From: Roseivirga thermotolerans
GTDB lineage: Bacteria > Bacteroidota > Bacteroidia > Cytophagales > Cyclobacteriaceae
Length of the DNA stretch: 64,000 nucleotides
NCBI RefSeq assembly: GCF_014653175.1
Contig: NZ_BNAG01000003.1
Span: 372,001 to 436,000 of the forward strand
Direction: 5' to 3'
Position 1 is the stretch's first letter; every line of letters begins with the position of its first letter. Made by a program: the position numbers and the translations under genes. Positions 1,990-61,974 of the stretch are shown piece by piece. The notes beneath the pieces were generated by a model. It did no database searches. It worked only from the letters and a program-made list of their open reading frames with translations, and was not told the origin of the DNA.

Positions 1990-2015
1990 AACCCCGGTAC
2001 GCAATCACCGGGGTT
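1990..2015 (-). terminator. Hairpin at the 3' end of the trehalase gene
   Basis: AACCCCGGT (1990-1998) pairs perfectly with ACCGGGGTT (2007-2015) around an 8-nt loop. It starts 4 nt after the trehalase stop codon. The T-tract on the minus side is weak (TTCTTAAAAAT), so termination efficiency is uncertain. On the plus strand the stem is followed by TGTTTATT. Confidence 0.7.
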
Positions 2016-2018
2016 TGT

Positions 2019-3542
2019 TTATTCCCTCAAAAGCTTTAGAAGCACTCCATTTGTCCAGCCAAAACCATCTTGTACCGGATACTCGCCTCCACCGCTAAGC
2101 AGGCTTGTGTCAACCACGTTGTACTTTTCCATAAGCTTGCCCGTATTTTTAAAAACCTTAATATTCAGGGCTGTCCAGCGATTTTTAATGGTTGTGGCCA
2201 AATGGTCGTGGCCGTAATTTCTAAGTCCCCAAATGGCCATCCACTGCAATGGAGCCCAGCCGTTGGGGGCATCCCATTGCTCGCCAGACTCAAAGTTTGT
2301 GGTAAGCAGCCCACCATCTTTCAGTAGTTCTTGTGCCAGGGTATTGGCTACACTTTCGGCCTGTTGGGCAGAAGCGAGCTGAAAAGCCAGTGGATAGACA
2401 GCCGCGGCTGTCAGGCTTGTGGTTTGAGCCTCATGGTGGTGGTTAAAATCAAAGAAGTAGCCTTCAGAAGCATTCCAACAATATTGCTGAATGGCCTTAG
2501 CCCTGCTTTCTGCTCTTTGGGCATAGTTGGTGCCCAACTTGCCTTCTCCTTGCAGTACATAGGCTTTGCTAATCATCTTTTCCAGATGGTAGAGCAGGCA
2601 ATTTAGGTCTACAGGTATCAGGTTGGTGGTATAAATGGTGGTGAGATCGTCAGGTACTTCGCACCATCGCGAACTAAAGTCCCAGCCGCTTTCACAGGCC
2701 GCCCGTATATTCAAAAGCGTTTGCTTACCCGCTTTCCCTTTTCGCTCAATTAATTCCACATCGTCTTGATACATTTCTGCTCTCGGACTGAAAATATTAT
2801 CATAGTGCCGATTCAGTACTTCTCCATTCGGCATGAGAACTACTCGTTTGTAATTGGCTTGCGTTTTGGACAGTTCTTGTTCACCCTCCATCCAAAATTT
2901 ATGTTCTTTTACCATGGCAGGTAAAAAATCTATAAGATACTTTTCTCCCTTTTCTTGTGCCAGCAGGCTTACCATAAGTGAAAAGAAGGGAGGTTGGGAG
3001 CGGCCTAGGTAGTATGTTCGGTTGCCATTGGGTATGAAGCCGAAATTTTCAATCATGTATGCAAAGTTTTTCACCATATGCTCCACCATGTCGGTTCGGC
3101 CACTTTCTACTAAACCCAGCATGGTAAAATAGCTATCCCAGTAATAGATTTCATTAAAGCGCCCGCCCGGAACTACGTAAGGATAGGGCAGAGGAATAAG
3201 CGTGGAAAAGTATTCCTCATTGTCGGGCTCACGGGCAAGAACAGACCATAAGCGTTCTATGTGATCTTCTACAGGCAGGGAGCTATCGCTTTGGTATTCT
3301 TTCCCTTGGCTTTGAGCACTCACAAAATAATTATTGAAGAAGGTTTTTAGGTCAAAATTGGGGTGGTTCTTTTCTTGCCTGTAGATGGCAAGTATATTGG
3401 CCGGATCTTCAATAGCATAGGCATCGGAAATCTCCTTGCCATCTGCCCACTGCCCGGAAGCATGCAAGTCAGTGAACAATTCTTTTAGGTCTTCCTCCAA
3501 AAAAATCAGTCGATTGGCCATAATCTTGTGGTTTTGAGCCAT
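2019..3542 (-). CDS. treF: Cytoplasmic trehalase, GH37
   Basis: A 507-residue alpha,alpha-trehalase that hydrolyses trehalose to two glucose molecules. Both family signatures are present: PGGRFNEIYYWDSYF at residues 125-139 and QWDAPNGW at 422-429. Other conserved blocks are RSQPPFF near 181, ESGWDFSSRW at 284-293 (D288 is the expected general acid), EKYN at 472-475 (E472 the expected base) and the glycine-rich GGGEYPVQDGFGWTNG near the C-terminus. There is no signal peptide, which points to the cytoplasmic TreF type, not the periplasmic TreA type. An alternative start is the Met at residue 8. It is monocistronic, followed by a hairpin, and divergent from the sigma-factor gene. Likely roles are recycling of trehalose as osmolyte or carbon source. 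Confidence 0.93.
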   Translation of the reverse strand: MAQNHKIMANRLIFLEEDLKELFTDLHASGQWADGKEISDAYAIEDPANILAIYRQEKNHPNFDLKTFFNNYFVSAQSQGKEYQSDSSLPVEDHIERLWSVLAREPDNEEYFSTLIPLPYPYVVPGGRFNEIYYWDSYFTMLGLVESGRTDMVEHMVKNFAYMIENFGFIPNGNRTYYLGRSQPPFFSLMVSLLAQEKGEKYLIDFLPAMVKEHKFWMEGEQELSKTQANYKRVVLMPNGEVLNRHYDNIFSPRAEMYQDDVELIERKGKAGKQTLLNIRAACESGWDFSSRWCEVPDDLTTIYTTNLIPVDLNCLLYHLEKMISKAYVLQGEGKLGTNYAQRAESRAKAIQQYCWNASEGYFFDFNHHHEAQTTSLTAAAVYPLAFQLASAQQAESVANTLAQELLKDGGLLTTNFESGEQWDAPNGWAPLQWMAIWGLRNYGHDHLATTIKNRWTALNIKVFKNTGKLMEKYNVVDTSLLSGGGEYPVQDGFGWTNGVLLKLLRE

Positions 3543-4223: not shown

Positions 4224-4803
4224 TGAAATGAAAAAAATATGGGATGAACAGAGTCAAAAGGCGTTGTATGCCTTAGACGAGGAAGCGCTTCACAATAGGG
4301 TGATACAGCGTAAAAATAAAGCTGCTGCAGTGGCCGGGAGAAGTGAACAACTAATGATGGGGTCGCTGGTGTTTTGCACGCTGGTTATTTTGGGTGCCAG
4401 TCTCATCAAGTCGGATTTTCAGCTATTCCCTAGTCTGTTGGCCGTAATTACAATGGTATTGGCCGGAGTAATATACCTTAGAAGACAGCAACGACTGAAC
4501 CATCAAAACACTTTCGATAAAAGCATATTGGGCGATATGAACGCGGCCATTGCCCATGCTGATTTTCAGGTCAGGCTATCGGCTATGGGTAAGTGGATTT
4601 ATTTGGTGGTGGCTTTGCTGAGTATTGCCTCTGTTGTCGATGAGTGGGCAGAGTGGTACAAGGGAGCCTTATTGCTTCTGTTTTTTGTGGCCGGGTACTT
4701 TGGTGCCCGTTGGGAGCATAAAACCTTTTACGTGTCGCAGAAGCAAAAGCTTGAGCACATGCGCGAAAAACTCATCAGTTTGAAAGATGGAGCATCAGTC
4801 TAA
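4213..4803 (+). CDS. Membrane protein, probable anti-sigma factor partner
   Basis: A 196-residue protein whose start overlaps the sigma-factor gene by 11 nt. An N-terminal charged cytoplasmic segment of about 45 residues (MEFDEMKKIWDEQSQKALY) is followed by two hydrophobic helices (about 47-65 and 72-90), a polar stretch, and two more helices (about 128-143 and 149-165) with a basic C-terminal tail. The family is not one I can name. The sigma-binding role is inferred from gene order and topology: a short soluble N-terminus facing the cytoplasm, next to an ECF sigma gene. It lacks the HxxxCxxC motif of zinc-binding anti-sigma domains, so it would be a different class. Confidence 0.8.
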   Translation: MEFDEMKKIWDEQSQKALYALDEEALHNRVIQRKNKAAAVAGRSEQLMMGSLVFCTLVILGASLIKSDFQLFPSLLAVITMVLAGVIYLRRQQRLNHQNTFDKSILGDMNAAIAHADFQVRLSAMGKWIYLVVALLSIASVVDEWAEWYKGALLLLFFVAGYFGARWEHKTFYVSQKQKLEHMREKLISLKDGASV

Positions 4804-4808
4804 TGATC

Positions 4809-5330
4809 TTAAATCAGCAGCCGTTTCATTAGTAAATCGCGCTGCAGGTCGCCTCCCAATTTAAAAGGGTGGCTGCCAAATACCTCAAAGCCATGGCGTT
4901 TGTAGAAGGCTATGGCTTTATTGTTTTCTTCCCAAACACCCAGCCAAATGGCCATCAGCCCTTTATTTTTGGCTTCTTGCATTGCAAAATTCAATAGTAA
5001 AGTGCCAAGGCCCTTGCCCTGAACATGTCTTTTTAGGTATATGCGCTCAACTTCCATGGCATTGTCCAAAACCTGGTCTGACTGAGCTTTTTTCGTATTG
5101 AGCTTAAGATAGCCCACCGGCTCATCTGTATTTTTTAAAAAGTAAAAGTAACTGTCCGGGGTTTCCAGTTCGTTGCGCAATTGGTTGGCATCGAATGCCT
5201 TTTGCAAATAACCGTCAAAATCGGCCTGATGGTTCTTATCGCCAAATGCATCGGTAAAAGTCTCTATAGAAATAGATCTGAGCTCCTCTAGCTGCTCGAT
5301 AGAAATCTTATCGATTCGATAGTTTTCCAT
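4809..5330 (-). CDS. GNAT-family N-acetyltransferase
   Basis: A 173-residue single-domain acetyltransferase. The acetyl-CoA pyrophosphate-binding motif A is VQGKGLGTLLL (residues 103-113), preceded by the beta-strand MEVERIYLKR, and motif B is NNKAIAFYKRHGFEVFG (about 136-152). This matches the RimI/SpeG-like group that acetylates small amines or peptide N-termini; the substrate cannot be predicted. It is convergent with the sigma/anti-sigma operon, separated by only 5 nt from its end. No signal peptide is present, so it is cytoplasmic. Confidence 0.92.
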   Translation of the reverse strand: MENYRIDKISIEQLEELRSISIETFTDAFGDKNHQADFDGYLQKAFDANQLRNELETPDSYFYFLKNTDEPVGYLKLNTKKAQSDQVLDNAMEVERIYLKRHVQGKGLGTLLLNFAMQEAKNKGLMAIWLGVWEENNKAIAFYKRHGFEVFGSHPFKLGGDLQRDLLMKRLLI

Positions 5331-5503
5331 AGACTTTGGGAATTTTAAAAATTACTTAACCGTCTAATATACAATTATAAGCTCTTGTGGAGGCTTACTT
5401 TTCGGGTCGCAAAAATATATTTTTTGAAAACGTGATCAATTCGGATTTGGCATTTGTGCCTAACCTGCTAATCATTTAAATTCCACCCATTCAAGTTTTG
5501 AGC

Positions 5504-8500
5504 ATGGAAACAAACATTCGCAAATTCAATAAAATACTGGTGGCCAATCGTGGCGAAATTGCTATACGCGTACTGAGAGCAGCTTCTGAAATGAAGATTC
5601 GTACGGTGGCCATTTACACATACGAAGACCGTTATTCCCTCCATCGATACAAGGCCGATGAGGCTTATCAGATTGGAGACGATGATGATCCGCTCAAACC
5701 TTATTTGAATATTGATGAGATCATTGCTCTGGCCAAAAGGGAAGGGGTAGATGCTATACATCCCGGTTATGGGTTTCTTTCAGAAAACGTACACTTTGTA
5801 AGAGCTTGTAAAGCAGCCGGAATCACATTTGTTGGCCCCGAGCCGGAAGTAATGCAACGCTTGGGCGACAAGGTGCAGGCTAAAATTGTGGCCCGCAATG
5901 CCCAGGTGCCGCTTATTGAAGACAGTCAGGAGCCGCTCACAAGCAGTGCCATTGCTCTTAAAGAAGCAAAGCGAATTGGCTTTCCTGTAATGGTAAAGGC
6001 CGCAGCCGGTGGGGGAGGCCGCGGTATGCGGGTGGTACGCTCGGAAGATGAATTGGAGCGCGCTTTCAATGAGGCTCGTGGAGAGGCTGGAAAAGCCTTT
6101 GGAGACGATACTATCTTCATTGAAAAATTTATTGATAGCCCCAAGCACATTGAGGTGCAAATCATGGGCGATAATTACGGTAACCTTGTACACCTGTATG
6201 AGCGCGATTGCTCAGTGCAGCGCAGGTACCAAAAGGTTGTAGAAGTGGCTCCTTCCATAGGGCTAAAAGATGAAACTCGTGAAAAACTCTATGAGTATGC
6301 GCTGAGAATTACCCGCGAAGTGAATTACAATAATGTGGGTACAGTAGAGTTTCTGGTCGATGCCGATGAGCAGATTTACTTTATTGAAGTAAACCCAAGA
6401 GTACAGGTTGAACATACGGTGACTGAAGAAATTACAGGCATTGATATTGTTCGCTCTCAAATAGAAATAGCCCAGGGTTATCCGCTCGACCACCCTCGGA
6501 TTTTCATCAAAAGCCAGGCCGATGTGCAGAAGAATGGTTTTGCCATTCAGTGCCGAATTACTACAGAAGACCCGGAAAACAATTTTAAGCCCGATTATGG
6601 CACCATTATAGCCTACCGGTCTCCGGGAGGGTTTGGTATTAGGCTAGATGCCGGTAACTGCTATGCCGGAGTAACCATATCGCCCTTTTTCGATTCGATG
6701 TTGGTGAAAATCACTGCTTCAGGACGCACGTTAAAAGGAGCTGCTCAAAGGCTGCAACGCGCACTTTCTGAGTTTAGAATACGAGGCGTAGTAACCAACA
6801 AAGGCTTTTTAGAGAATGTACTTAGTCATGAGACTTTCTTTACCGGAAAGGCCACAGTAAAGTTTATAGAAAATCATCCGGAGTTACTCCAGATGCCACG
6901 GTACATGAACCGGGCCACAAAGTTACTCAACTACCTGGGAGAGGTGGCCGTAAATGGCAATCCGAGCGTAAAGAAAATAGACCCTTCAGTAAAGTTGAGG
7001 GTACCGAAGGTTCCTGAGTTCGACCGTTTGGGAGCGTATCCTTCCGGCACCAGGCAAATTTTGGAAGAAAAGGGAGCCGAAGGATTGGCCAAGTGGATTA
7101 AAGAGCAGCCGCAAATCCTATTTACCGATACTACCTGGCGCGATGCCCATCAGTCGTTGTTGGCTACGCGAATGCGTTCGCTGGACATGCTCAAAGTGGC
7201 CGAAGGTTTTGCCAAAAATCAACCCAACGTATTTTCTTGGGAAATGTGGGGAGGGGCTACCTTCGATGTGAGTATGCGGTTCCTTTATGAAAACCCATGG
7301 GACCGGTTGAAGCGAATGCGTGCGGCAGCACCCAACATACTTATGCAAATGCTTATAAGAGGTTCCAACGGTGTAGGTTACAAAGCTTATCCGGATAACC
7401 TTATTGAGCGATTTATTGAGAAGTCGGCTGAGAATGGCATGGATATTTTCCGAATATTCGATTCTCTCAACTGGGTGGAGGCCATGAAGGTGAGCATTCG
7501 CACGGTTCGTGAGAGAACCAACTCAGTGGCAGAAGCTTGCATTTGCTATACGGGCGATGTGCTCGATAAGGAAAGCAAATACAACTTGCAGTATTATCTG
7601 GACATGGCTCGGGCACTGGAAGACGAAGGAGCCCATATTATAGCCATTAAAGATATGGCAGGTTTGCTAAAGCCCGAAGCAGCTACCGTATTGGTAAGTG
7701 CTCTTAAAGAAACGGTGAATTTACCCATTCACCTGCACACTCACGATACATCGTCCATGCAAGCCACCACATACTTTAAAGCCATAGAAGCTGGAGTAGA
7801 TATTGTGGATGTAGCCATTGCTTCCATGTCAGGCCTCACTTCTCAACCCAATTTTAACTCGCTGGCAGCGGCACTCAAGGGGCATCCCCGAGACCCTAAG
7901 ATTGATGTGCAAAACCTGAATAAGTATGCCAACTACTGGGAAGATGTGCGCGAATATTACTACCCCTTCGAAAGCGGTCTGAAGGCCGGCACAGCTGAGG
8001 TGTACGACCATGAGATACCGGGCGGGCAATACTCCAACCTAAGACCACAGGCTGCTGCTCTGGGCCTGGAGCATAAGTTTGAAGAGGTAAAGCGTAATTA
8101 TGCGGTGGTCAACAAAATGTTTGGAGATTTAGTAAAGGTGACCCCGTCTAGCAAGGTGGTTGGCGACATGGCCATATTTATGACTTCTAACAACTTGACA
8201 CCGGCCGATATACTGGAACGTGGCGAGACCCTCTCTTTTCCGGAGTCAGTCATTAGCTTGTTCAGGGGAGATCTGGGGCAAATGCCTGGAGGTTTTCCGC
8301 AAGAGCTTTCCAGAATTATTCTAAAAGGCGAAAAGCCATATACAGACCGGCCAAACGCACACCTGGAGCCCGTAGACTTTGATAAGGAGTTTAAAGCGTT
8401 TCAGCAAGAGTTCGACATTTACTGCGATGAGCTGGACTTTCTTTCGTACAAGTTATACCCCAAAGTTTTTAAGGATTTCTATCAGCATTGGCAAAACTAT

Positions 8501-12396: not shown

Positions 12397-13932
12397 TTGA
12401 AAAGAACAGAAGACGATAAGATCAATGTCCTTCTTATTTCTGAAGGAACCTATCCGTTTTACGGAGGAGGTATTTCTACATGGAGTCACATGTTGTGCGA
12501 TAGGGTTTCTAACGTCCACTTTAATTTATACTCCATCAATGCCGGCTACATACCTAAGCCCATTTTTGAGCTAAGTCCTTCAGTAAAAGAGGTAATACAG
12601 GTACCTCTTTGGGCTCCCGATGAGCCGCAGGATTATGTGAGCTATAAGCGAGACTACTATAAGGTAGTGAGCAAAAAAGAAGAGACCACCAGCGAAGTAG
12701 TGCAAGAGCGGTTTATTCCCATTTTTGAGAAGTTCTTGCAAATGGTGTATGAGGGGTCTACTGACATGAAAGTGCTGGATGTGGTGTTCTATGAATTGTG
12801 GCTTTACTTTCAAGACTACGACTACAAACGCACCATGCAAGACCAGGCCGTTTGGGAAGCTTTTAAGTATGAAGCCACGCGCAAGACAGAAGAAGATGGC
12901 AGTTATGTGGCCTCTTTGTTCGATATTACCGTTGGGCTGCGTTGGCTCTATCGTTTTCTCATTCCGTTTTCTATTCCTATCAAGAAAATGGATTTGTGCC
13001 ATATTACACTCTCGGGTTTTCCGCTCATTCCTGCACTGGTATTAAAATATAGATACGGTACACCGTTGATGATTACCGAACATGGGGTATACGTAAGGGA
13101 AAGATTGCTTTACATTAACCGGTCAGACTACAGTTACTTCATTAAGGATTTTCTGATCAGGCTTACAGAAACCATAACAAGGCTCTCCTACTATAAGGCC
13201 GATAAAATTCTATCGGTAAACAAGTTTAACATTACCTGGGAGCTCATGTATGGCGCCAGCGAAGATAAAATTGAAATTACTTACAACGGGGTAGACCATG
13301 AGAAATTTACTCCCCGCCAAAAACCTGAGCACTTAAGGGGGATACCTACCGTGGTGGCTGCCGCACGAATTTTTGAATTGAAGGATGTGCTCACCATGAT
13401 TCGCTCATGCGATGTGGTTCGGAAGAAGATACCCAATGTGAGATACCTGGTGTATGGCGATAAGAATGCGGTGCCGGAATATACCGAGCAATGCGAAAAC
13501 CTGATTAAGCAATTAAAGCTGGAGAACAACTTCTTCTTAATGGGGTATCATAGTGAGCCCCACCTCATATTCAGTGAGGGAGATATATCCATTCTCACCT
13601 CTATTTCAGAAGGGTTTCCTTTCACGGTAATTGAATCTATGAGCTGTGGGGTGCCGGTGGTGGCAACCGATGTGGGTGGAGTAGCCGAAGCAATAGATGA
13701 GGGTTCGGGCTTTGTGTGTAAACCCAGAGACCCTGAAGCCATTGGTAAAAGGGTAATTCAGTTGTTGGAAGATGAAGAACTTAGAAAGACCATGAGTGTA
13801 CACGCCCGAAAGCGGGTTATGGAAAACTTTACGCTCGATATTTTTATAGAATCTTATGAGCGTATTTATGAGGAGGTTTACCAGAAACAACAACCAAAGA
13901 AGCAGAAGATAAAGAAGGAGTTGAGCTTATGA
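12397..13932 (+). CDS. pelF: PelF-like cytoplasmic glycosyltransferase (GT4)
   Basis: A 511-residue glycosyltransferase. The N-terminal motif EGTYPFYGGGISTW (residues 16-29) is the hallmark of PelF, the UDP-sugar-dependent polymerase of Pel exopolysaccharide, and the charged insert after it fits the PelF N-terminal domain. The C-terminal half has the GT-B donor site EGFPFTVIESMSCGVPVVAT (about 403-422), with the EX7E pair. There is no signal peptide or membrane helix, as expected for a soluble enzyme recruited by PelG. The start codon is TTG: an in-frame stop lies 6 nt upstream (12388-12390) and the next ATG would delete the sugar-nucleotide loop. It is the first gene of a five-gene run, ending in an ATGA overlap with the next. 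Another GT4 role is possible, but the context favours PelF. Confidence 0.88.
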   Translation: MKRTEDDKINVLLISEGTYPFYGGGISTWSHMLCDRVSNVHFNLYSINAGYIPKPIFELSPSVKEVIQVPLWAPDEPQDYVSYKRDYYKVVSKKEETTSEVVQERFIPIFEKFLQMVYEGSTDMKVLDVVFYELWLYFQDYDYKRTMQDQAVWEAFKYEATRKTEEDGSYVASLFDITVGLRWLYRFLIPFSIPIKKMDLCHITLSGFPLIPALVLKYRYGTPLMITEHGVYVRERLLYINRSDYSYFIKDFLIRLTETITRLSYYKADKILSVNKFNITWELMYGASEDKIEITYNGVDHEKFTPRQKPEHLRGIPTVVAAARIFELKDVLTMIRSCDVVRKKIPNVRYLVYGDKNAVPEYTEQCENLIKQLKLENNFFLMGYHSEPHLIFSEGDISILTSISEGFPFTVIESMSCGVPVVATDVGGVAEAIDEGSGFVCKPRDPEAIGKRVIQLLEDEELRKTMSVHARKRVMENFTLDIFIESYERIYEEVYQKQQPKKQKIKKELSL

Positions 13933-15536
13933 CACATACGCAGAAAATAGAGCAATTGGGATATGATGTTTATGATAAACTGGGCAAGCCGGTCAATGTG
14001 AATGTGGTGCGTGCCATGCTAGAATCTATGAGCATTAGAGCCATAGATGCTAAGCAAGACTATGGCATAGACGACCTTCAGGAATTGGCTCAACTGGTTT
14101 ATGATCAGATAACCAATCCTCGTTTTCTGGAAGAAAACCCTAGCCAGCTGCCTGTAAATGAACAGTTCAGAGCAGACTTTACCTCTGCGACAGACTACCT
14201 GAAAATAAAAACCAGGTACTTCTTTTATTACTATCCGCTCGGTTTGTTTCATGGTGTTCCTGTGTTTTTGCAAATAGCTACCATCATCGTATTTGGGTAT
14301 TCTATGTGGACCTACGTAGGTTTTAACCAGTTGCAATCTACGGCTGTGGTGTTGGGAGTAATTTTCGGACTGATCGGCACAGGAGGTTTTGTGCAGGTAA
14401 TAGGTAGGCAGGTTTCTCACTATTGGTTTAGCAAAGACTTTCATATGGCGCGAAAGAGCACCATTATGGTTATTCGCGATGGGTTACTTTTTATGGGGGT
14501 GCTCTGCGTTTTGGCATTGGTGCTTAATTTCTTTGCCAATTTTTATCCGTATAAATTTTTGTGGTTGGTGTATGCCTATGCCTACTCCATTGGGTTGTTG
14601 TTATTGCTTTCGGCAGTGTTTCACCCCCTCAAAGAGCGGTGGTTCATTACGGTGGCATTTATTTTGGCAGCGGGGCTTTCTTTGGTACTACACCTGTACA
14701 CCAGCCTGGAAACCTATTATACACATTGGATAGGCATCTGGACGGCCATAGCCCTTATGGTACTTTACCTCAACTGGTTTTTTAAACGAAAAGTGAGTAG
14801 AACCAAAGTGTTCAACCGGGCCACCAGCAAAACGGCTGTAATGGTTTACCGCAACTATCGCTACTTCTTTTACGGGTTCGTTTTCTTCATTTTCATTTTT
14901 ACCGATCGTTTTTTGGCGTGGTCCACATCAGACGATGGAGCTTTGCCATACATTCTCTATTATGAAAAAGATTATGAAATAGGCATGGATATAGCCATTC
15001 TCATTTTCTTTCTTTTGGTGGGGGTGTTGGAGTTTGGTATTGCTTCGTTTAGCACAATCAGCGACCTGCTACAGAAACAGATTCCTTATAATCAGGCCAA
15101 GGTGTTTAACAGACGATCGCTCAAAATGTACTGGGAACATGTGCTCATATTGCTCATTGTGGGAGCGGTTATGACCTTTTTGCTTTACCTCATTATCTGG
15201 GAAAGGCTGGGCTATCAGCGGGCGTTCGATCAGGTATTGAATACGGTGAGTATTAAAGTAAGTATTATTGGAGGGCTGGGCTATATTCTTGTGGCTTGGG
15301 GCATGCTCAATTCACTTTATTTATTTACGCTCAACAAACCAACACAGCCGCTCAATGCGCTGCTTTTAGGGTTGTTGGTCAATGTATTGGTGGGGCTGGC
15401 GGCAAGCCGTCTTATCTCTTATGAATACAGTGTGGTAGGCATGTTTGCCGGTTCGGCCGTATATATGCTCATGACACTGCGCACAACGTTACAATTTTTC
15501 CGAAATCTCGACTATTACTACTATGCCGCGTATTAA
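13929..15536 (+). CDS. PelG-like polytopic membrane protein
   Basis: A 535-residue inner-membrane protein overlapping pelF by 4 nt (ATGA). An N-terminal soluble segment of about 100 residues (helical, DLQELAQLVYDQI) precedes about 12 transmembrane helices, the number in PelG of the MATE/PST-like flippase superfamily. The stretch FTDRFLAW, followed by a polar loop and MDIAILIFFLL, resembles in spacing the W-DKF-FW and D-IFLAYL region I recall from PelG. The protein ends in an aromatic tail LDYYYYAAY. PelG associates with PelF and moves the growing polymer through the inner membrane. The PelG call rests on topology and its place directly after pelF; the extra N-terminal domain is unusual, since Pseudomonas PelG (about 456 residues) starts almost directly with a helix. 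Confidence 0.75.
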   Translation: MTHTQKIEQLGYDVYDKLGKPVNVNVVRAMLESMSIRAIDAKQDYGIDDLQELAQLVYDQITNPRFLEENPSQLPVNEQFRADFTSATDYLKIKTRYFFYYYPLGLFHGVPVFLQIATIIVFGYSMWTYVGFNQLQSTAVVLGVIFGLIGTGGFVQVIGRQVSHYWFSKDFHMARKSTIMVIRDGLLFMGVLCVLALVLNFFANFYPYKFLWLVYAYAYSIGLLLLLSAVFHPLKERWFITVAFILAAGLSLVLHLYTSLETYYTHWIGIWTAIALMVLYLNWFFKRKVSRTKVFNRATSKTAVMVYRNYRYFFYGFVFFIFIFTDRFLAWSTSDDGALPYILYYEKDYEIGMDIAILIFFLLVGVLEFGIASFSTISDLLQKQIPYNQAKVFNRRSLKMYWEHVLILLIVGAVMTFLLYLIIWERLGYQRAFDQVLNTVSIKVSIIGGLGYILVAWGMLNSLYLFTLNKPTQPLNALLLGLLVNVLVGLAASRLISYEYSVVGMFAGSAVYMLMTLRTTLQFFRNLDYYYYAAY

Positions 15537-16329
15537 AAAAATGGCCTCATTTCTGGCTCTGTTTTCTTTTACGAGCCTCTTTTGCCAAGAGCCACCAAAA
15601 GCTTCAGTATTGGTGTGCTATGGCGATATCAATGCCGATAGAATCAGAAATTTTAAATATGTAATTCTGGAGTCGGAACAATACAACCCCTTTGATATAC
15701 GCCTAATGAAAGAAACCAACGAGCTGGTGTTGGGTTACATTAGTGTGGGAGAGGTAAGCACGGCCCGATATTACTTTCCGGAGCTAAAAGACCGAACCCT
15801 GGGCAAAAATAGCTTATGGGACAGCTATTATCTTGATTTGGCCGATCCGGTGACCCAAAATGCGCTTATGGGCCTGGTCGACCGGATAAAGCAAAAGGGT
15901 TTTGATGGCCTTTTTCTGGATACGGTTGATGCTTATGGCCCCTGGGGGCCACATCCGGAGAAAGTAGGGGCCTATGTGGAGTTTATTAGTCGTGTCAAAG
16001 AGAAATACCCCGATTTTCATTTAATGCAAAACTCAGGGGTTTCTATCACCCCCCGAACCAAAGACTTTATCAATTCGGTTGCTCTGGAATCGGTAATTAC
16101 CGACTATAACTTTGAAAAATCGGATTATCGTATGCGCAGGCTAAGCGAATACAATGAGCGTGTGGCCGGGCTTAAGAATGTAGAAGAAAAATATAACCTG
16201 CCCATTGTGCTTATTGAATATGCCAATACAAAGAGCATGTTCAATCGGGTGAGAAACCAGGCCACGGCATTGGGTTGGGATTATTTTATTGGAAACATAG
16301 GTTTAGAAGAATTGCCAAGGTTTAAATGA
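15523..16329 (+). CDS. Secreted GH114/PelA-type polysaccharide hydrolase
   Basis: A 268-residue protein with a signal peptide (MPRIKK, then a hydrophobic core to about residue 21), so exported to the periplasm. The mature part is one TIM-barrel domain: LVCYGDI near the start, LGYISVGEVSTARYYF, YYLDLADP, the diagnostic GFDGLFLDTVDAYGPW, LMQNSGVS, and IVLIEYANTK near the end. These belong to the TM1410/GH114 group (endo-alpha-1,4-polygalactosaminidase), to which the hydrolase domain of PelA (GH166) is related. In Pseudomonas this domain is fused to the PelA deacetylase; here it is a separate gene. It overlaps the previous gene by 14 nt and the next by 4 nt. Expected role: trimming or releasing GalNAc-rich polymer in the periplasm. 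Substrate is inferred. Confidence 0.8.
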   Translation: MPRIKKMASFLALFSFTSLFCQEPPKASVLVCYGDINADRIRNFKYVILESEQYNPFDIRLMKETNELVLGYISVGEVSTARYYFPELKDRTLGKNSLWDSYYLDLADPVTQNALMGLVDRIKQKGFDGLFLDTVDAYGPWGPHPEKVGAYVEFISRVKEKYPDFHLMQNSGVSITPRTKDFINSVALESVITDYNFEKSDYRMRRLSEYNERVAGLKNVEEKYNLPIVLIEYANTKSMFNRVRNQATALGWDYFIGNIGLEELPRFK

Positions 16330-18299
16330 ACATACCCTACATAGATACCATCTTTCTCGGCATAGTCAGGCTGCTGCTGTGGGTGTTCTTCCTGTATTTG
16401 CTCAAACGCTTGTTCATTAAAGACAAGCCATCGCAAAACCAGGTGAAGACCATGGGTAACTATTGGGCAGTTTTCGGAAGTGTGGTTTTGGTGCTTATCT
16501 ATGTGCTTGTGCAGGTAAACAGCTACGACCTGCTGACCATCATTGCCTTTATGATTTTCTTCTTTGGCTTTCGGCTGATTGGCGTAAAACAACTCAAGCT
16601 GAAAAATAACCTTTGGCTTAGGAGGCGAAAGGCCATACTTATCAATGTAATTGAGAACATTGAAGATAAGGAGCCGATTATTGATGTACGAAAGGCCAAA
16701 GCCAATAAACGCTTTTCGGTAAAGGCAGGCTTTTATTTTGCCACACTGGCTTGCTTTACGGCCATGATGGTTCGCTTCTACCTGATGCAGTTTGATAACT
16801 ATCAGCTTTCGGCCGCCTGGTTTCAGGAGCTCAAAATTCTGGACGGACTCAGTGATCAGCGTTGGTTCAACAACGAGATGGTTATGACAGGCCAGTATGC
16901 TTTAATGAGCTTCTATGGCCTTATTACCGGTATAAGTGCCGAAATGGCTCTTGAGTCCTTTGGTCTTTTCCAAATATTCATTTTATGCTTCGTTATTTTT
17001 TGGTTTATCGATGCCATGACCAACAGCTTGGTTACCATTCCGCTTTTAGGTACCCTGGCTTTTGCTCTATTCTTTAACCTGGTACCCATCAACCTCACAC
17101 AAATAACCCACAGCAAGTCCACCTTTATGGCCATGACTTTCTTTTTGCCGGCCTTAATATTTATTCGGAAACCCTGGGTGCTTTATAAGAATAAACGAAG
17201 TAATTATTTCTGGCAAATGCTGGTTATTTTCTGTGCCATTGCGCTTATAGACCTGTTTACATTACTTATTCTTTTGCCTCCCTACTTCATGGTGGTAATA
17301 CCATTTATTCGAAGAGGATACTGGAAATTCTTTATGCAATCTTTTTGGGCTTATTTGGGGGCCTACGTCTTCATACTAGGCTCTTTTGCCCTTTCGGCTT
17401 ATAATAATGATACGGATTTCTTTCTTTTTCTTCGATCCAATCTTCTTTCAGTTAGTTCTACCACCACTACCGGTAACATGATATTGTCTTACGATACCCT
17501 CATCTGGATATTCCAGGGCATATCCTTAGTGGGGGGTGTGGTCATGTTCTTTCTCTATCGCGACCATGAACGCAAGTGGGCCAGCCCGCTCGCCTTCATT
17601 ATTTATGTAAATGTAATGATACTCTACAGCACCATGGGTTTTGAGTATTTCGATAGAGACCTGTTCAATGAAATATTGCCGGTGTTGGTAGCATGCGCTC
17701 TCAGCCTTGTTTTCTACATCATTTACTACTATTTCAACACTCGCTTAACTCGTGTAGAAATCCCTGACAAGGTTTCGGTGCCACTGATTTTTGCCTTGTT
17801 TTTAGTAACAGCCTATTACAGCCAGCCTGAGCTGGTGAACCGTACCTCTAAAACCAACTCACTGAGTAAAACCATACTAGAGGCCTATCAGAATATTAAG
17901 GCCAGTTTTATACCCTACGGGTATGCCGTGGTAAATGCAAGCAATATGCTGCCCATGAGTAGAGACTCTCATATATTCATTGGCTACGATGATTTTCTCA
18001 ATGCTTACCCCGAGCGAGACTCTGTTTATTTTGAGTACAAAGACGACAAGGAATTTCTGCGGCTCAACACAGAGTACATTTTGCCGAATAGCGTGCTCGT
18101 TTTTATTTATCATAATGTATCGGATGAGTTTAGGCGTAAGGTGCGCATTGAAGAGGAGGTACAAGACGATGTAGTGCGATTGGTCAATGACCTAAGATTA
18201 CGAGGAAGACCTATACGTCTCTTCTATGAAAAGGATAATTTAAGGGTCTATGAAATTGTGAATAAACCCAAAGAAGCAAGAATTAAAGAGTTGTTGTGA
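16326..18299 (+). CDS. Large polytopic membrane protein of the Pel-like operon
   Basis: A 657-residue inner-membrane protein with roughly 12-13 hydrophobic helices between residues 8 and 490 and a soluble C-terminal domain of about 150 residues (from about 505 to the end). That domain holds repeated aromatic and acidic motifs such as FIGYDDFLNAYPERDS. I do not recognise the family. It overlaps the upstream hydrolase gene (ATGA) and the downstream exporter gene (GTGA), so it is made with them. By position it could replace PelD and PelE, the inner-membrane partners of PelF/PelG, but there is no visible GAF or GGDEF domain and no RxxD-type c-di-GMP site that I can support. A membrane-bound GT-C glycosyltransferase is an alternative, given the many helices and an early periplasmic loop. 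Confidence 0.8.
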   Translation: MNIPYIDTIFLGIVRLLLWVFFLYLLKRLFIKDKPSQNQVKTMGNYWAVFGSVVLVLIYVLVQVNSYDLLTIIAFMIFFFGFRLIGVKQLKLKNNLWLRRRKAILINVIENIEDKEPIIDVRKAKANKRFSVKAGFYFATLACFTAMMVRFYLMQFDNYQLSAAWFQELKILDGLSDQRWFNNEMVMTGQYALMSFYGLITGISAEMALESFGLFQIFILCFVIFWFIDAMTNSLVTIPLLGTLAFALFFNLVPINLTQITHSKSTFMAMTFFLPALIFIRKPWVLYKNKRSNYFWQMLVIFCAIALIDLFTLLILLPPYFMVVIPFIRRGYWKFFMQSFWAYLGAYVFILGSFALSAYNNDTDFFLFLRSNLLSVSSTTTTGNMILSYDTLIWIFQGISLVGGVVMFFLYRDHERKWASPLAFIIYVNVMILYSTMGFEYFDRDLFNEILPVLVACALSLVFYIIYYYFNTRLTRVEIPDKVSVPLIFALFLVTAYYSQPELVNRTSKTNSLSKTILEAYQNIKASFIPYGYAVVNASNMLPMSRDSHIFIGYDDFLNAYPERDSVYFEYKDDKEFLRLNTEYILPNSVLVFIYHNVSDEFRRKVRIEEEVQDDVVRLVNDLRLRGRPIRLFYEKDNLRVYEIVNKPKEARIKELL

Positions 18300-21200
18300 G
18301 TAAGAAGGCTTTCACCGGTTGTGTAGTTAAATGGCTTTTACTAGTACTTGTAGTGCTTGTTCAGGCTTGTTCTGACGATGAAAAGAACGAGCCCAGAAAG
18401 AAAGTACAGGTAGTGGATAATCAGCCCATTGTGCTGTACCTGATTGACTCTACCCATGAGATGAGCCGGCCCTATGCCAAAGAACTGGCCAAAGTTTTCG
18501 ATTACAATAAAATACCCTACGCCACTCAGGAGCTACCTGATTATGCAGACGACCCCTACATAGATCCTTCCGTTAGGGTGGTTTATATAAATACCACTCA
18601 AAACCTGGATGATCTGGGCAGAGAAATATTGGTGGAGTTTGTGGCCATGGGGGGTACATTGGTGTTTCCAAGCCTCAATGAAGACCCCAATGGTGGTTTC
18701 CTTTCGGGTATAGATGTGGGAGCCGACTTTATGTATGATCTGGAGTCGCAAGGGATTCACTTTGTAAAGAACATGGTGCCCGGTATGGAAGGAAAGTCTA
18801 TTTATCCTCAGAAGAAAAATATTGGGCTCAAGCGCGAAAGTTTTAAAGACTCCATCAATGTGCTAGCCACTGCCGCTACGGATCCTACCCAGCCGCTCAT
18901 TTTTGAACATTATATAGGTGCCGGCAGAGTGGTGCATTTCAATACCAATATGGTTTTTGAAAAGCCCGACAGGGGTCTGCTCTTTGCTCCGGCACTAAAA
19001 GGCCTGCAGGGAGTGCCATATCCTATTGTGAGTGTAGGAGCTATTTTCATAGACGATTTCCCCAGCCCACTCTACGACTATAAGGCCGAGCCAATAGCCA
19101 GCGAATTGGATATTACCCAGGCCGAGTATGTAATGGATGTATGGTGGCCCGATATGCTCAAAGTAGCCGAACAGTTCAATATCGATTATTCGGCCTATCC
19201 CTGTTTTAACTACGACCGAATAAAACAACCGCCATTTATTTTCAGAGAATGGGATATGCACCGTTCCATACGCGATGGCAAAGAGGTTATTAGTGCTAAC
19301 TGGATGACTAAACAGGTGATCAAACACAAGTTTGAAATGGCCTTTCATGGCTATAACCACGAGTCGTTGGTAGATACCATTTGGAGAAACCCGGAATATA
19401 TGGAAGGGGCACTTATTGCGGCCCGGAAAAAATGGAGAGTGAACGGCTTTGGCCCCTTTCCGGTAACCTATGTGCCACCTTCGAACGATATCGATAGCAT
19501 TGGACTGGTTCACCTGGCCAATGCTATGCCCGAAATTGAGTTTATGTGTTCTATTTACGAGGGCGATTTCTACGAAGGAGGCGAAAGAGAATACGATGTA
19601 GACCCTCTTGAGCCGAGACTGTTCGATTTTCCGAGGGTTTCCAGCGGCTATGTGTTTAGCGATTTTAAAACCTACAGTTGGCAATCGCTATACCTTTTTA
19701 CCGGCATCTGGTCGCATTTCATTCACCCTGATGATATTTACCAACTCCCCGTTGAGAGCAATACCAGTGCAGGAGATTATGCATACAGAAATGCCGAGCG
19801 ATTGGGGTGGTATACCTCCAGCAACAACCGAAAGGGGATGCTCACACGTTGGGTAGAGTACCTGGAAGAGGTAACGGAGACTCACCCCTCTATGCGCTTT
19901 TTAGATGTGGCAACCGGTGCTACCATTACCCGCGATTGGCGCAACAGCAAGTATGAGTATATACCCAATGGAGATACCTATAACGTAAAAAAGGTCAGTG
20001 CTAACAAATGGAAGAAGAAGCACTTTTTTTGGAATGTATTCGTAGAAAAGACCAATCAACAACTGCTTCAGGAAGAACTACAACGCAAAGGTCTCAATTA
20101 CACCAAAACGCCCGTTATGGGAGGATATCTGCTTACGGTAGAAACGCCTGAAGCCGCCATTGCCTTTAGCGAAGGACTGCGATTTAAGAATACTCGTCAG
20201 TACTCCTTAGATGAAATATTTTCTGACATTAAAGATCAGTTCAAGGGCTACGAAGAAAAAAGAAAAACCATTGTGCAGGAGGTAGACGAAGGGGAGTATG
20301 TGGAGGAAATTGAGCTTCCGGTTACCGTAGAAGACTCGGTGCAATATTTCGTGGAAAACGAAAATCTGGATGCCGCCACCAACATCTTGTTGCGTCAGCT
20401 CAGGGAGAGTACTCAACCCGATACGGCTATTTTTAGCCAGTATGCACTGTATTTGGCTTATAACGAAAAGCCTCAGGAGGTATGGGGCTTTCTGGAAAAT
20501 ACCTACAAAGAGTCGCCCAAAACAGCTATGGTTTACCTCAATCATTACCTGGCTACAGAAGCCTACCCCAACGAAGAGCTCAACGAACTATGGCTGAGAA
20601 GAAAGATTGAGCGCGCCCCTACCAATATGGAGCTCATAAAAGAATACATGCAGTATTTCTATACCGACCAATACAAAGAGCAGGTAAAAGAAATGCTGGT
20701 AAATGCTCAAGAGGGCAATAGTGCGGAAGAGGCCTATGCTCTTTATGTACGTTATCTGATTGACTGGGAACCCGAAGAGCTGCATAGAGAACTGGTGAAC
20801 AAAAGCCCCGAGAGATACCCAAAACTCTTGCCCATGGCCACTTCTATAGCCTATGCATTTTCAGACAATGGCATGTTGCAAGATGCCCTTTTGTGGGCCG
20901 AATACAGCAATGAGATAAGCATGCTTACCCAATTGCAGTGGTGGGCCGACCTGGAAGCCTTTAATAAGATGGAGACGGTATACCTCCGATACATTAAGAA
21001 CAACCCCAATGATGAAGAGGTGAAGAGCTTTGTGGCCAACACATGGTTTGATATTGGGGAGTTCGAAAGAGCCGGTTTAGTGGCTAAATCCATGAACAAC
21101 CCGTTGAAAAAAGACAGCTTAAGAGAGCGCATAAACCCCGAAGCACAATACTTTGAGAGCGATGTTCAAAAATTCATGATTCTCAATACGCCCGGTGTAT

Positions 21201-22174
21201 TCTACCCCGATACATTGCAAAACTTACTTATGCGTCTGAGGTATAACGAACATGCTTCAGTAGAATATACGACCGACTTTGTGGAGGATAACTTCAATCA
21301 GTCGGTGTGGAACAATATGGTTACCCTCCATATGAAAACACGCAAGCTCAACCAGCACAGCCTTTCGGTTACCTATAGTGATGTTTCAGACCTGGTCATT
21401 AATACATTCGATGCCAACAACGTGGCGCATCAATTGTATGGTTTGCGATACCGCTACCAAACCAGAGAGAATACAGATAAGCCCATTTTCTATGCCTTGG
21501 CCGGTTTAGAGAAAGACGATTTGTCTAACACCTTCTTTTCACTGGGGGCAGGAATATCACAGGCCAACGAAAAGTCTTTTAAGTCCATTGGCTACACCTT
21601 TAGCCCGGTAAAAACGGGTCCGGCCATAAGTAGAGAAATTTATTGGGGCGAACTGGTTGGCTACTATGAAAGAGGCTACAATAAGGCCTGGCAAACCTCT
21701 CTGTCGCCCGTGCTTTCTCACTACACTACCGGAGTCTACGAAGGAGCCGTTACCGGACGCCTTTTCTATAATATTAAGCCCCTTAACAAGTCTCGGTTTT
21801 CACCATTTGCTGAGGCATTTGGTTCGGTATCTAATGGCATGCAAGAAGGTGGTAACCCCTTCTGGGTAGTAGAGCGAAGGTTCTATGGAGGAGGAGGTTT
21901 GGCCTGGAATTACGGTAGAGACCAAACCAGAAAGCCATACATGCGTGTGGAGGCAGGAGCCTTTTACGATACCTATACCGGAAACTTCCTTAGAATTACC
22001 GGCAATTTCGCCTTCCCTATAAAGAAATATACTTTCGTTACCGGGCAGTTTGAGTTTTACAACCAGGCCCTTTATTACTCCAATGGCTTTCAGTTAGGTA
22101 TAAGGCACTTCTTTAGAAGAAGAAAACCATATTACGTGAAGCCAAGGGAATATGACGACTGGTACGATGAGTAA
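18296..22174 (+). CDS. PelA-like deacetylase fused to a PelB-like helical-repeat/beta-barrel exporter (lipoprotein)
   Basis: A 1292-residue protein starting with GTG in a GTGA overlap. A lipoprotein signal ends at C25 (LVQAC), followed by SDDEKNE. Residues about 40-235 form a Rossmann-like domain (PIVLYLIDSTHEMSRPYA). Residues about 245-520 carry a CE4-like deacetylase: FIDDFPSP with D253/D254, FHGYNHESL with H351 and H355, YVPPSND at 392-398, and HFIHPDD at 474-480, in the same order as the PelA deacetylase. A helical region of TPR-like spacing spans about 680-960. From about 985 the sequence is amphipathic beta-strands ending in GFQLGIRHFF, a probable outer-membrane barrel as in PelB. PelA and PelB are separate proteins in Pseudomonas; the fusion would tie deacetylation to export. 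The domain calls are by eye. Confidence 0.85.
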   Translation: MSKKAFTGCVVKWLLLVLVVLVQACSDDEKNEPRKKVQVVDNQPIVLYLIDSTHEMSRPYAKELAKVFDYNKIPYATQELPDYADDPYIDPSVRVVYINTTQNLDDLGREILVEFVAMGGTLVFPSLNEDPNGGFLSGIDVGADFMYDLESQGIHFVKNMVPGMEGKSIYPQKKNIGLKRESFKDSINVLATAATDPTQPLIFEHYIGAGRVVHFNTNMVFEKPDRGLLFAPALKGLQGVPYPIVSVGAIFIDDFPSPLYDYKAEPIASELDITQAEYVMDVWWPDMLKVAEQFNIDYSAYPCFNYDRIKQPPFIFREWDMHRSIRDGKEVISANWMTKQVIKHKFEMAFHGYNHESLVDTIWRNPEYMEGALIAARKKWRVNGFGPFPVTYVPPSNDIDSIGLVHLANAMPEIEFMCSIYEGDFYEGGEREYDVDPLEPRLFDFPRVSSGYVFSDFKTYSWQSLYLFTGIWSHFIHPDDIYQLPVESNTSAGDYAYRNAERLGWYTSSNNRKGMLTRWVEYLEEVTETHPSMRFLDVATGATITRDWRNSKYEYIPNGDTYNVKKVSANKWKKKHFFWNVFVEKTNQQLLQEELQRKGLNYTKTPVMGGYLLTVETPEAAIAFSEGLRFKNTRQYSLDEIFSDIKDQFKGYEEKRKTIVQEVDEGEYVEEIELPVTVEDSVQYFVENENLDAATNILLRQLRESTQPDTAIFSQYALYLAYNEKPQEVWGFLENTYKESPKTAMVYLNHYLATEAYPNEELNELWLRRKIERAPTNMELIKEYMQYFYTDQYKEQVKEMLVNAQEGNSAEEAYALYVRYLIDWEPEELHRELVNKSPERYPKLLPMATSIAYAFSDNGMLQDALLWAEYSNEISMLTQLQWWADLEAFNKMETVYLRYIKNNPNDEEVKSFVANTWFDIGEFERAGLVAKSMNNPLKKDSLRERINPEAQYFESDVQKFMILNTPGVFYPDTLQNLLMRLRYNEHASVEYTTDFVEDNFNQSVWNNMVTLHMKTRKLNQHSLSVTYSDVSDLVINTFDANNVAHQLYGLRYRYQTRENTDKPIFYALAGLEKDDLSNTFFSLGAGISQANEKSFKSIGYTFSPVKTGPAISREIYWGELVGYYERGYNKAWQTSLSPVLSHYTTGVYEGAVTGRLFYNIKPLNKSRFSPFAEAFGSVSNGMQEGGNPFWVVERRFYGGGGLAWNYGRDQTRKPYMRVEAGAFYDTYTGNFLRITGNFAFPIKKYTFVTGQFEFYNQALYYSNGFQLGIRHFFRRRKPYYVKPREYDDWYDE

Positions 22175-22226: not shown

Positions 22227-22574
22227 TCACTCGGTTTTTTTGGTAGCCTCAAACTTTCGGTTGCCTCCTTCAAAAGTTAGTGAAATCACTACGCCTTCTT
22301 TGTTTCGAGTGAAAGAAATACGGAGCCCCTTCGTGTTCTTCAATTCATATTTGTCTCCTGCCACTTCAACCATTTCTGTTAGAGGCTGAGATTTGTCTGA
22401 GGGTTGAGCCATGAGTACATTTTCGTTATTTAAACTCACCGTAATGTCAAAGCCCCGGTCAGTACTGGAGATATATTGTCCCACATAATCTTTTGCCGCC
22501 TTGTCCTGAGCCAAAAGCGTGGAGACTGAAAAAAGAATAAATGCCATAAATAGTGTTCGAATGGAGTTTTTCAT
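22227..22574 (-). CDS. Small secreted DUF3471-like protein
   Basis: A 115-residue protein from the ATG at 22574. The long upstream extension of the frame, to 22826, overlaps the neighbouring gene and has no protein character, so I reject it. MKNSIRTLFMAFILFSVSTLLAQ is a clear Sec signal peptide with cleavage near AQ. The mature 90 residues form one small beta domain (YVGQYISSTDRGFDITVSL, then ISFTRNKEGVVISLTFEG) like the DUF3471 domain often found at the C-terminus of beta-lactamase-family proteins, here stand-alone. Function unknown. It converges on the Pel-like operon, 52 bp away. Confidence 0.7.
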   Translation of the reverse strand: MKNSIRTLFMAFILFSVSTLLAQDKAAKDYVGQYISSTDRGFDITVSLNNENVLMAQPSDKSQPLTEMVEVAGDKYELKNTKGLRISFTRNKEGVVISLTFEGGNRKFEATKKTE

Positions 22575-22672
22575 AAGACCTTTTGGAACCTTAGATGTGT
22601 TTAGCTTCGGCAAGGTTACATACCTGAGACAGACCAGTGCACTATCCGCCAGGCTTACTATTCGCATTTGCT

Positions 22673-23038
22673 TCAATAAGGCAAAAACAGCAAATAAAGT
22701 CCCGTTAGTAAGTTGACGCCAATACAAACCCACCCGATGATTGTTTTTAGCTTTTTGTTGAAAGCTAGCAACAGAACAAACAAGAAGAATGTGAGGCCTC
22801 CAATAAAAGGAGGTGCAAAAAGCCACAACAGCCCACCAAGTCCGGAGTTTTCGGGTAGACTGGCACTTGAAGAGAGGGCAAAGGATGTAATGACCGAAAG
22901 TAGAATTCTCATTAGAAACTTCTCTGTTTTGTCATCCATAAATTTCTCCGCCTCAGCAGGAGCCTTTCTGTCTTGAATGACCATGGCAATAATCAGTACC
23001 ACAAAGGAGAGCGCAACGGCTGCTATAAATATCAACAT
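22673..23038 (-). CDS. Small integral membrane protein
   Basis: A 121-residue protein from the ATG at 23038, chosen because MLIFIAAVALSFVVLIIAMV is directly hydrophobic; the upstream 16 residues of the frame are unlikely to be translated. Four hydrophobic segments are visible (about 2-20, 43-58, 66-88 and 99-119), with a charged loop QDRKAPAEAEKFMDDKTEK after the first. No motif identifies a family. It lies 98 bp upstream of the DUF3471-like gene on the same strand, and the two may be co-transcribed. Confidence 0.65.
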   Translation of the reverse strand: MLIFIAAVALSFVVLIIAMVIQDRKAPAEAEKFMDDKTEKFLMRILLSVITSFALSSSASLPENSGLGGLLWLFAPPFIGGLTFFLFVLLLAFNKKLKTIIGWVCIGVNLLTGLYLLFLPY

Positions 23039-23170
23039 TGTATTACCAAGTTCTAAAAAAGAAATGAGGTAAGGGTGTATGCACAATAAAAACTAATATT
23101 CTAGTTATTTATTCAGTGAGGCTTTTTTGCCTATCTTATTAACAGTAATCATCCTCCTAAACGTAGTCCA

Positions 23171-54965: not shown

Positions 54966-55046
54966 AGAAATATATGTATTGATCCTTATAGGGTTGTGAT
55001 TAGGGTTGAAATGATTATTCTGACACGTTTGTTGCGGTCGATATAC

Positions 55047-55799: not shown

Positions 55800-55802
55800 T
55801 CT

Positions 55803-59799: not shown

Positions 59800-59811
59800 T
59801 GCGGGTATAGG

Positions 59812-61945: not shown

Positions 61946-61974
61946 CTTAGTTTAGGGTTATTCTAGGGTTTGGT

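Follow-up and report, generated by a model that had tools for sequence, protein, structure and literature searches.

We report on a run of five overlapping genes of the bacterium Roseivirga thermotolerans, which is likely to represent a conserved, probably functional Pel-type system for making and exporting a Pel-like amino-sugar polymer. The genes occupy the + strand at 12397-22174 of a stretch of 64,000 nucleotides (nt; contig NZ_BNAG01000003.1, positions 372,001-436,000), here called the window, and are designated in their order F (PelF-type glycosyltransferase), G (divergent PelG), H (PelA-type hydrolase), X (predicted GT-C-fold protein) and DB (predicted deacetylase-exporter fusion). The Pel-type reading is based on homology to known families, retained catalytic residues, the predicted folds, a conserved gene order and a genome free of GGDEF domains, and from these we infer the substrate, the direction of transport, the activity of X and the functioning of all parts as one machine. 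Pel serves as a model for matrix polymers and has been described from Proteobacteria and Gram-positives. In our best reading, the system found here is of the known Pel type in a new architecture, the third after those of these two groups. A preliminary description of the window had listed the same five open reading frames (ORFs) with overlaps of 4-14 nt, which were recovered (successively 4, 14, 4 and 4 nt). Also, it had proposed a set of synthase, processing and export functions in a different architecture, and the testable parts of this proposal are borne out by the family matches and the DB fusion.

Relatives of the operon were collected as a named set, consisting of the best 80 of 143 confirmed DB relatives, and from a phylum sample of 296 evenly drawn Bacteroidota genomes. 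In the gene-neighbourhood survey that the preliminary description had suggested, the order F-G-H-X-DB was intact in 64 of the 80 named loci, mostly of Flavobacteriaceae and Roseivirga. Three further loci had the order F-G-Y-H-X-DB with an additional gene Y, and 13 were incomplete. An assembly artefact or a chance gene order is ruled out, since the order is kept in many named genomes. Within the named set, Roseivirga species came closest, above all Roseivirga pacifica, whose five genes are arranged as in the window and whose DB is 56% identical.

Putative synthase, hydrolase and exporter

Gene F (12397..13932, + strand; 511 amino acids (aa), TTG start) encodes a PelF-type, cytoplasmic GT4 glycosyltransferase. 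The protein matched the PelF model NF038011 with 167.2 bits (cut-off 100) over residues 11-491 and covered the whole profile; it also matched DUF3492 (E 1.1e-47) and Glycos_transf_1 (E 4.4e-34). F was the sole match above the PelF cut-off in the genome of the window, and the PelF signature EGTYPFYGGGISTW of the preliminary description was located in it. Identity of F to plasmid-borne PelF matches was 25-33%, the best one being from Deinococcus sp. QL22 (33%). Polymerisation by F and export across the inner membrane by G would follow from homology.

Gene G (13929..15536, + strand; 535 aa) encodes a polytopic inner-membrane protein with 11 to 17 hydropathy segments, a number that varies with the threshold and speaks neither for nor against the 12 helices of the preliminary description; G directly follows F in the intact loci. 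The G protein of the window matched the PelG family PF16933 with E 8.1e-6 (25.4 bits) over residues 111-532 and profile positions 34-452. When the 69 aligned family members (68 named ones and that of the window) were scanned singly, 31 matched PelG at E<=0.01, the best with 4.7e-11, and two other families each matched just one of the 69; in a smaller first set, PelG was matched in 8 of 19 at E<=0.1. The PelG-like second protein of the preliminary description was thereby recovered across the family, the window protein alone staying below the cut-off, and we assign the putative PelG role at the family level only. A MATE/PST-like fold of G is suggested by the Pfam family, and a profile search of the PDB with G gave no relative. 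The PF16933 match is preceded by an N-terminal extension of about residues 1-100 (13929..14228, + strand), which is presumably cytoplasmic. The protein at the PelG position of Deinococcus/Thermus pelF clusters opens with a similar segment (hhalign E 3.6e-5, probability 71%, with a profile of two sequences), and a kinship of the two segments is therefore put forward as a lead only.

Gene H (15523..16329, + strand; 268 aa) encodes a stand-alone hydrolase of the PelA type (GH166/GH114) with an N-terminal stretch resembling an export signal. It matched Glyco_hydro_114 with 60.3 bits (cut-off 27), and its best match in the PDB was PelA (5tcb, E 8.5e-16), followed by TM_1410 (E 2.4e-6), in agreement with the GH114-type hydrolase noted in the preliminary description. 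Residue E189 of H aligns to a residue that differs between the PelA entries 5tcb and 5tsy. The catalytic base of PelA is given as E218 in the accessible text of PMC9894940, and we equate E189 with this residue as its putative counterpart. E189 and D133 were each conserved in 91 of 91 members of the H family. The PelA hydrolase of Pel loci thus has its counterpart in H, with PelA as the best PDB match and the presumed catalytic Glu kept. In several loci (L099, L104, L117, L124 and others, at about 2000-3200), which belong to Maribacter, Salegentibacter and Cellulophaga, a second, weaker hydrolase relative of 319-388 aa was observed beside PelF.

The last and largest gene, DB (18296..22174, + strand; 1292 aa, GTG start), encodes a predicted lipoprotein with the lipobox-like N-terminal motif LVQAC, and 73 of 76 DB relatives have a hydrophobic run ending in Cys, as judged by a loose pattern. 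Residues 34-565 (18395..19990, + strand) matched DUF2194 (PF09960; E 1.7e-59, 202.1 bits, cut-off 30.4) and represent the PelADA-type part, comprising CBM114, a CE26 deacetylase and a beta-sandwich. DB matched PelADA of Bacillus cereus (PDB 9zau) with a phmmer E-value of 4.3e-36. According to the accessible text of PMC13254593, this enzyme deacetylates alpha-1,4-linked N-acetylgalactosamine (GalNAc), and its residues with a catalytic, metal-related or activating role include D262, D263, H350, H354, R458, H488 and D491. The aligned DB residues D253, D254, H351, H355, R447, H477 and D480, for which the numbering offset of the 9zau chain is our own reading, were each conserved in 70 of 70 family members (58 of 75 named after dereplication, 11 of 22 sampled, and that of the window). 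This homology and the fully conserved active site argue for a functional deacetylase.

A structural model of residues 246-1292, computed from 70 sequences, reached a predicted local distance difference test (pLDDT) of 88.4 and a predicted template modelling score (pTM) of 0.49. It contains the CE domain, a beta-sandwich, about 350 residues of paired helices forming a TPR-like superhelix (residues 638-985; 20207..21250, + strand) and 16 beta strands predicted to form an outer-membrane beta-barrel (residues 988-1272; 21257..22111, + strand). Foldseek and VIA placed the barrel with polysaccharide exporters: VIA gave Z 23.8 to 4y25, which we take to be PgaA, and Z 23.3 both to BcsC (6tzk) and to PelBC (9h80), in the latter to chain M, presumably PelB; other barrels had Z 15.7 and below. 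By Foldseek and VIA, the CE domain matched polysaccharide deacetylases (Z 18.9). PelA and Agd3 were not among the best 50 VIA and 50 Foldseek rows, which is no argument against kinship. TPR families matched 3 of 20 DB family members (best 2.3e-23) and PgaA_barrel matched one weakly (0.0064), the window DB being matched by neither. DUF2194 match, fold model and searches together show the deacetylase, the helical repeat and the barrel that the preliminary description had assigned to the protein starting at 18296; on the presence of deacetylase and barrel in a predicted structure it had partly staked its reading, and the prediction contained both. From the predicted fold, DB would export the polymer across the outer membrane, in which it may be held by both the lipid and the barrel.

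The predicted GT-C-fold protein X and regulation

Gene X (16326..18299, + strand; 657 aa) encodes a polytopic protein with a C-terminal soluble domain, which had been left unassigned in the preliminary description and matched nothing in Pfam and NCBIfam above any cut-off. An AlphaFold2 model from 19 sequences (pLDDT 67.8, pTM 0.67) points with moderate confidence to a GT-C fold, a guess recorded before the result of the fold searches was known. In Foldseek, the top eight rows were all GT-C proteins (DPY19, ArnT, AftD, ALG12 and archaeal oligosaccharyltransferase (OST); best E 1.6e-3), with yeast ALG3 at rank 11 and the other following rows unrelated and of low probability. VIA gave a top Z of 20.2 for an OST chain of yeast, presumably STT3; the 43 leading rows were GT-C or GT-C-like with Z from 20.2 to 10.2, before a fall to 7.2. 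The match spans residues 124-648 and extends into the C-terminal soluble domain, at an identity of 7-14%.

In the alignment of 63 X relatives (51 of 73 named, 11 sampled, and that of the window), D443, D565, R628 and N646 were invariant, and E113, located in a conserved stretch between helices, was kept in 62. Position 157, just past the first core helix as read from the model, was Asp in 51 of the 63 and N, H or S in the other 12. These 12 are exactly the loci with gene Y, and 51 of 51 without Y, that of the window included, keep the Asp; the loss in the Y-bearing loci may be one ancestral change. GT-C enzymes are expected to have acidic residues on the periplasmic side, where D157 and D443 would lie if the helix order of the model is read rightly. 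Since Asp157 is lost in the Y-bearing clade, X is not an obligate enzyme there. Altogether we consider it evenly balanced whether X adds a sugar to the polymer.

The genome of the window (4.2 Mb, 99.99% complete) contains no GGDEF domain, a search in which 8 of 14 control genomes were positive, and GGDEF was absent from 15 of the 18 carrier genomes tested (18 of 23 carriers, that of the window included). The PelD_GGDEF model had no match in the window genome, nor in any control. Among the five operon proteins, PelD and PelE were matched by no Pfam or NCBIfam search, and within the operon, to which this part of the analysis was confined, pelC and pelE are absent, as the five genes encode other proteins and no small lipoprotein gene is present; a very divergent PelE may be encoded elsewhere in the genome. 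The preliminary description had stated a lack of PelC, PelD and a receptor for cyclic di-GMP (c-di-GMP), and none of these was found in the operon. Control of the operon by c-di-GMP is unlikely because of the missing GGDEF domains in the window genome; for the same reason, a c-di-GMP receptor would be without its ligand in most carriers, unless the nucleotide came from elsewhere. Since GGDEF is absent from most carrier genomes tested, the synthase would be under another control.

Gene Y (518-547 aa) lies between G and H in 19 of 22 sampled loci (in L041 at 4415-6037, and at the corresponding position in 18 others among L042-L060) and in 3 of the 80 named loci (L121, L132 and L142), which include Balneolaceae. 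HD domains were found in both Y proteins scanned with Pfam, and all 19 sampled Y proteins keep HDIG, have HHE (in three of them HQE) and lack GYP. Most tested genomes with Y lack GGDEF, and 12 tested genomes of family f23 are without it. A role of Y as c-di-GMP phosphodiesterase is disfavoured by the missing GYP and by the lack of GGDEF in these 12 genomes; another ligand or a sensor role appears likelier from the sequence, and Y may be a nucleotide sensor replacing PelD. In the 19 sampled Y loci (L041-L045 and L047-L060), an extra GT4-like glycosyltransferase gene (at least 310-398 aa) was observed directly upstream of PelF. A variant locus (L039:3012-8919) carries genes for X, a SpoIIE phosphatase, a GAF-HD protein and a STAS protein between PelG and DB. 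SpoIIE, GAF-HD and STAS proteins are typical of partner-switching control. A SpoIIE-type phosphatase gene, with the domain type of this variant, is also present in the window at 34687-35913.

Distribution and comparison with known Pel systems

Carriers of the operon include Roseivirga, Flavobacterium, Maribacter, Salegentibacter, Mesonia, Cellulophaga, Aquimarina and Nonlabens, as well as Fodinibius with gene Y. Ten of the incomplete named loci end at contig ends (L078, L079, L085, L087, L098, L101, L103, L110, L114 and L125) and three are degenerate (L071, L122 and L141). In L141, the DB frame is interrupted. The operon of Flavobacterium davisii (L122) looks degenerate, with interrupted F and X frames and with G and H read as a single frame of 786 aa, and was excluded from the DB, X and G alignments. 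Aureibaculum luteum (L071) has DB and a short X stub only, and F, G and H were not found by tblastn in the available stretch; A. flavum (L072) has all five genes. In all 67 measurable named loci without Y, H starts inside G, the overlap being exactly 14 nt in 49 of them; longer overlaps depend on the upstream start picked by the ORF caller. One intact five-gene locus (L131) belongs to a record titled Limnohabitans, a betaproteobacterial name, which would mean transfer or wrong binning and is probably due to a wrongly binned contig.

In the phylum sample, DUF2194 was matched in 37 of 296 genomes, in 24 of them above the cut-off; the 13 with partial matches below it were excluded. One marginal case (L061, genome G196; 30.8 versus 30.4 bits) with only a GT4 nearby was dropped. 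All five genes were present in 21 of the 22 sampled loci outside the window, with a short G and an H split over two frames in L058. In the 22nd locus, the variant L039, we found F, G, X and DB, X by profile comparison alone (probability 99.7%, E 2.9e-26), and did not find H. Of 247 sampled genomes, 19 were matched strongly by the X profile (E<=2.5e-51), one further match being marginal (3.8e-4), and all 19 genomes with a strong match are among the 23 genomes with fused DB.

With pelABCDEFG of Pseudomonas aeruginosa, the operon shares PelF, PelG, a PelA-type hydrolase, a deacetylase and a PelB-like helical repeat with 16-strand barrel. In contrast to that system, the Roseivirga hydrolase is separate, the exporter is joined to a deacetylase that belongs to the PelADA (DUF2194/CE26) type and not to CE21, this fusion protein DB is a predicted lipoprotein, an extra GT-C-fold protein is present, pelC, pelD and pelE are absent from the operon and GGDEF is absent from the genome. 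Modification and export, which P. aeruginosa splits over PelA, PelB and PelC, would here be carried by DB and a free hydrolase. The pelDEADAFG cluster of B. cereus shares PelF, PelG and the PelADA deacetylase with all catalytic residues, but it differs, according to the accessible texts, in belonging to a bacterium that lacks an outer membrane, in being controlled by c-di-GMP with PelD and PelE present, and in an unfused PelADA held by a transmembrane helix (PMC7112168, PMC13254593). In Roseivirga, a lipobox is instead followed by a PelADA-type part that continues into repeat and barrel, in an operon without pelD and pelE. The operon would work in the manner of P. aeruginosa Pel, with a deacetylase of the B. 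cereus kind; because of the lack of pelC, pelD and pelE in the operon, the fused deacetylase and the added GT-C-fold protein, it belongs neither to the P. aeruginosa nor to the B. cereus type.

A further comparison is with the pelF clusters of the likewise diderm Fusobacteriota (Cetobacterium, L063, and Fusobacterium, L065), in which PelF and DUF2194 are one gene apart in the same gene run, with a GH166/114-type hydrolase nearby and, by annotation, PelG after PelF in Cetobacterium. Their DUF2194 proteins are unfused (609-621 aa), X was not found by profile, and the Cetobacterium cluster includes a GAF protein and hypothetical proteins. In the pelF clusters of Deinococcus sp. QL22 (L064) and Thermus brockianus (L066), the protein at the PelG position, which shares the similar N-terminal segment, had no Pfam match; the hydrolases are annotated as endo alpha-1,4 polygalactosaminidases, and no PelD is annotated in the stretches examined. 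Their deacetylases are Agd3-like (PF25115/PF25116) and not DUF2194, in proteins of 696-716 aa without barrel match. In the exporters PgaA, BcsC and PelB, as in DB, a 16-strand barrel comes after a helical repeat (Z 22.6-23.8); to our knowledge, none of them has a deacetylase in the same chain. X shares its predicted fold over residues 124-648 with the GT-C glycosyltransferases STT3/PglB, ArnT, DPY19 and AftA, from which it differs by the low identity in structural alignments and the missing family matches.

The preliminary description had held the gene order to be undescribed, and no account of the five-gene operon or of the fused DB was found among the listed matches and passages of open-access full text, a body without preprints and most subscription journals. 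The accessible main text of the pel operon surveys of 2020 contains no word beginning with Bacteroid- (PMC7112168, PMC7112194). In related clusters of other phyla, genes for PelF and endo alpha-1,4 polygalactosaminidases have been named by automatic annotation, and parts of the system may thus be labelled in databases yet not described as a system.

Proposed mechanism and alternative explanations

In the proposed mechanism, PelF would polymerise UDP-GalNAc in the cytoplasm and PelG would move the chain over the inner membrane. In the periplasm, the chain would encounter X, which would probably add a sugar from a polyprenyl-phosphate donor, and the hydrolase H would trim or clear it. Lipid-anchored DB would deacetylate the chain by its CE26 domain, guide it along the helical repeat and release it via its own 16-strand barrel. 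Modification and export would thereby be combined in one polypeptide and a free hydrolase, with no c-di-GMP switch needed. The polymer would presumably be alpha-1,4-GalNAc, to which three proteins of the operon point independently, being nearest to Pel enzymes acting on it. Tentatively, and with some doubt, we extend this to a c-di-GMP-free Pel machine belonging to the core of many Bacteroidota, whose GT-C enzyme would use a lipid donor to decorate the nascent polymer in the periplasm, while one lipoprotein would both deacetylate and export it; if true, the machine would produce a Pel with branches or side chains, unlike any seen in other bacteria.

Several results weigh against the Pel-type reading and its parts. 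For G, the score of the window protein lies below the Pfam cut-off of 29 bits for PF16933, 38 of the 69 G relatives fall short of E 0.01 for PelG, and hhalign of G with plasmid PelGs gave a probability of 4.5%, later of 7.1% (E 0.005; three PelGs, collinear), with few known sequences available for comparison. The pTM of the DB model means that the domains are sound and that their mutual placement is not given by the model. For X, the confidence of the model is moderate, all Foldseek rows stayed above E 0.001, and 12 of the 63 relatives have lost Asp157, the residue put forward as catalytic. Three of the 18 tested carrier genomes do have GGDEF domains (1, 6 and 6). Also, the UDP-hexose 4-epimerase of GalE type encoded elsewhere in the genome is in line with the Pel-type reading, but such epimerases are widespread and no pointer to Pel.

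The role of X is the point at which an alternative comes closest. X could be a subunit with a structural or a regulatory role, its GT-C fold being degenerate, and perhaps form the hub for PelF and PelG in place of PelE and PelD, to which we give a little less than an even chance; X would then add no sugar, and the product would be a plain, partially deacetylated Pel. X is kept in the operon even where Asp157 is replaced, matches to PelD and PelE are absent among the five proteins, and the stretch between helices with E113 is conserved, all of which would fit such a subunit. An enzymatic X is favoured instead by the retention of Asp157 in every relative without Y and of D443 in 63 of 63, both periplasmic by our reading of the model. 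The Pel-type assignment of the operon is preferred over two further explanations. GT4, GH114 and CE4-like folds act on many substrates, and the cluster might make another, non-GalNAc polymer by a PelF-like GT4 with another donor, a GH114-family hydrolase and a carbohydrate esterase (CE) with another substrate. The low identity of F to plasmid PelF matches and the divergence of G from PelG agree with this, and the authors of one survey say that divergent pel loci may not produce the same polymer (PMC7112194, accessible text). As all three carbohydrate-active proteins are independently nearest to Pel enzymes acting on alpha-1,4-GalNAc polymers, we regard another polymer as unlikely. Finally, the glycoside hydrolase and CE genes, in a phylum rich in polysaccharide-degradation loci and with one such locus apparent elsewhere in the window, could indicate degradation or scavenging with DB as uptake porin. 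This explanation was rejected as extremely improbable due to the exporter-type barrel and the presence of PelF and PelG: PelF and PelG build and export, the DB barrel matches the exporters 4y25 (PgaA), BcsC and PelBC at Z 23-24 with all others at or below 15.7, and matches to SusC and SusD are absent among the five proteins (Pfam, NCBIfam).

Many Flavobacteriaceae, Roseivirga and Balneolaceae carry the third Pel architecture, and we know of no matrix polymer of the Pel class that has been characterised in these groups. From the GT-C-fold protein, a modified polymer would be expected, and the DB fusion offers a testable case of the coupling of deacetylation and export, which is called unclear for Gram-negative Pel systems in the accessible text of PMC13254593. 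Through the PelADA work, DUF2194, seldom named in open-access literature, is linked to a function and a structure; the accessible text of that paper does not use the name DUF2194 (PMC13254593).

The operon consists of the five genes only, and the flanking genes add nothing to the set. Upstream, a permease gene, presumably MacB-like, lies on the opposite strand. Downstream, two small ORFs on the - strand (22227-22826 and 22673-23086) are followed by a gene that we take to be alpha-2-macroglobulin-like. At 53133-63927 of the window, on the - strand, genes for a sulfatase, a GH43 and a glucoamylase-like protein together with adjoining genes resemble a polysaccharide-utilisation locus.

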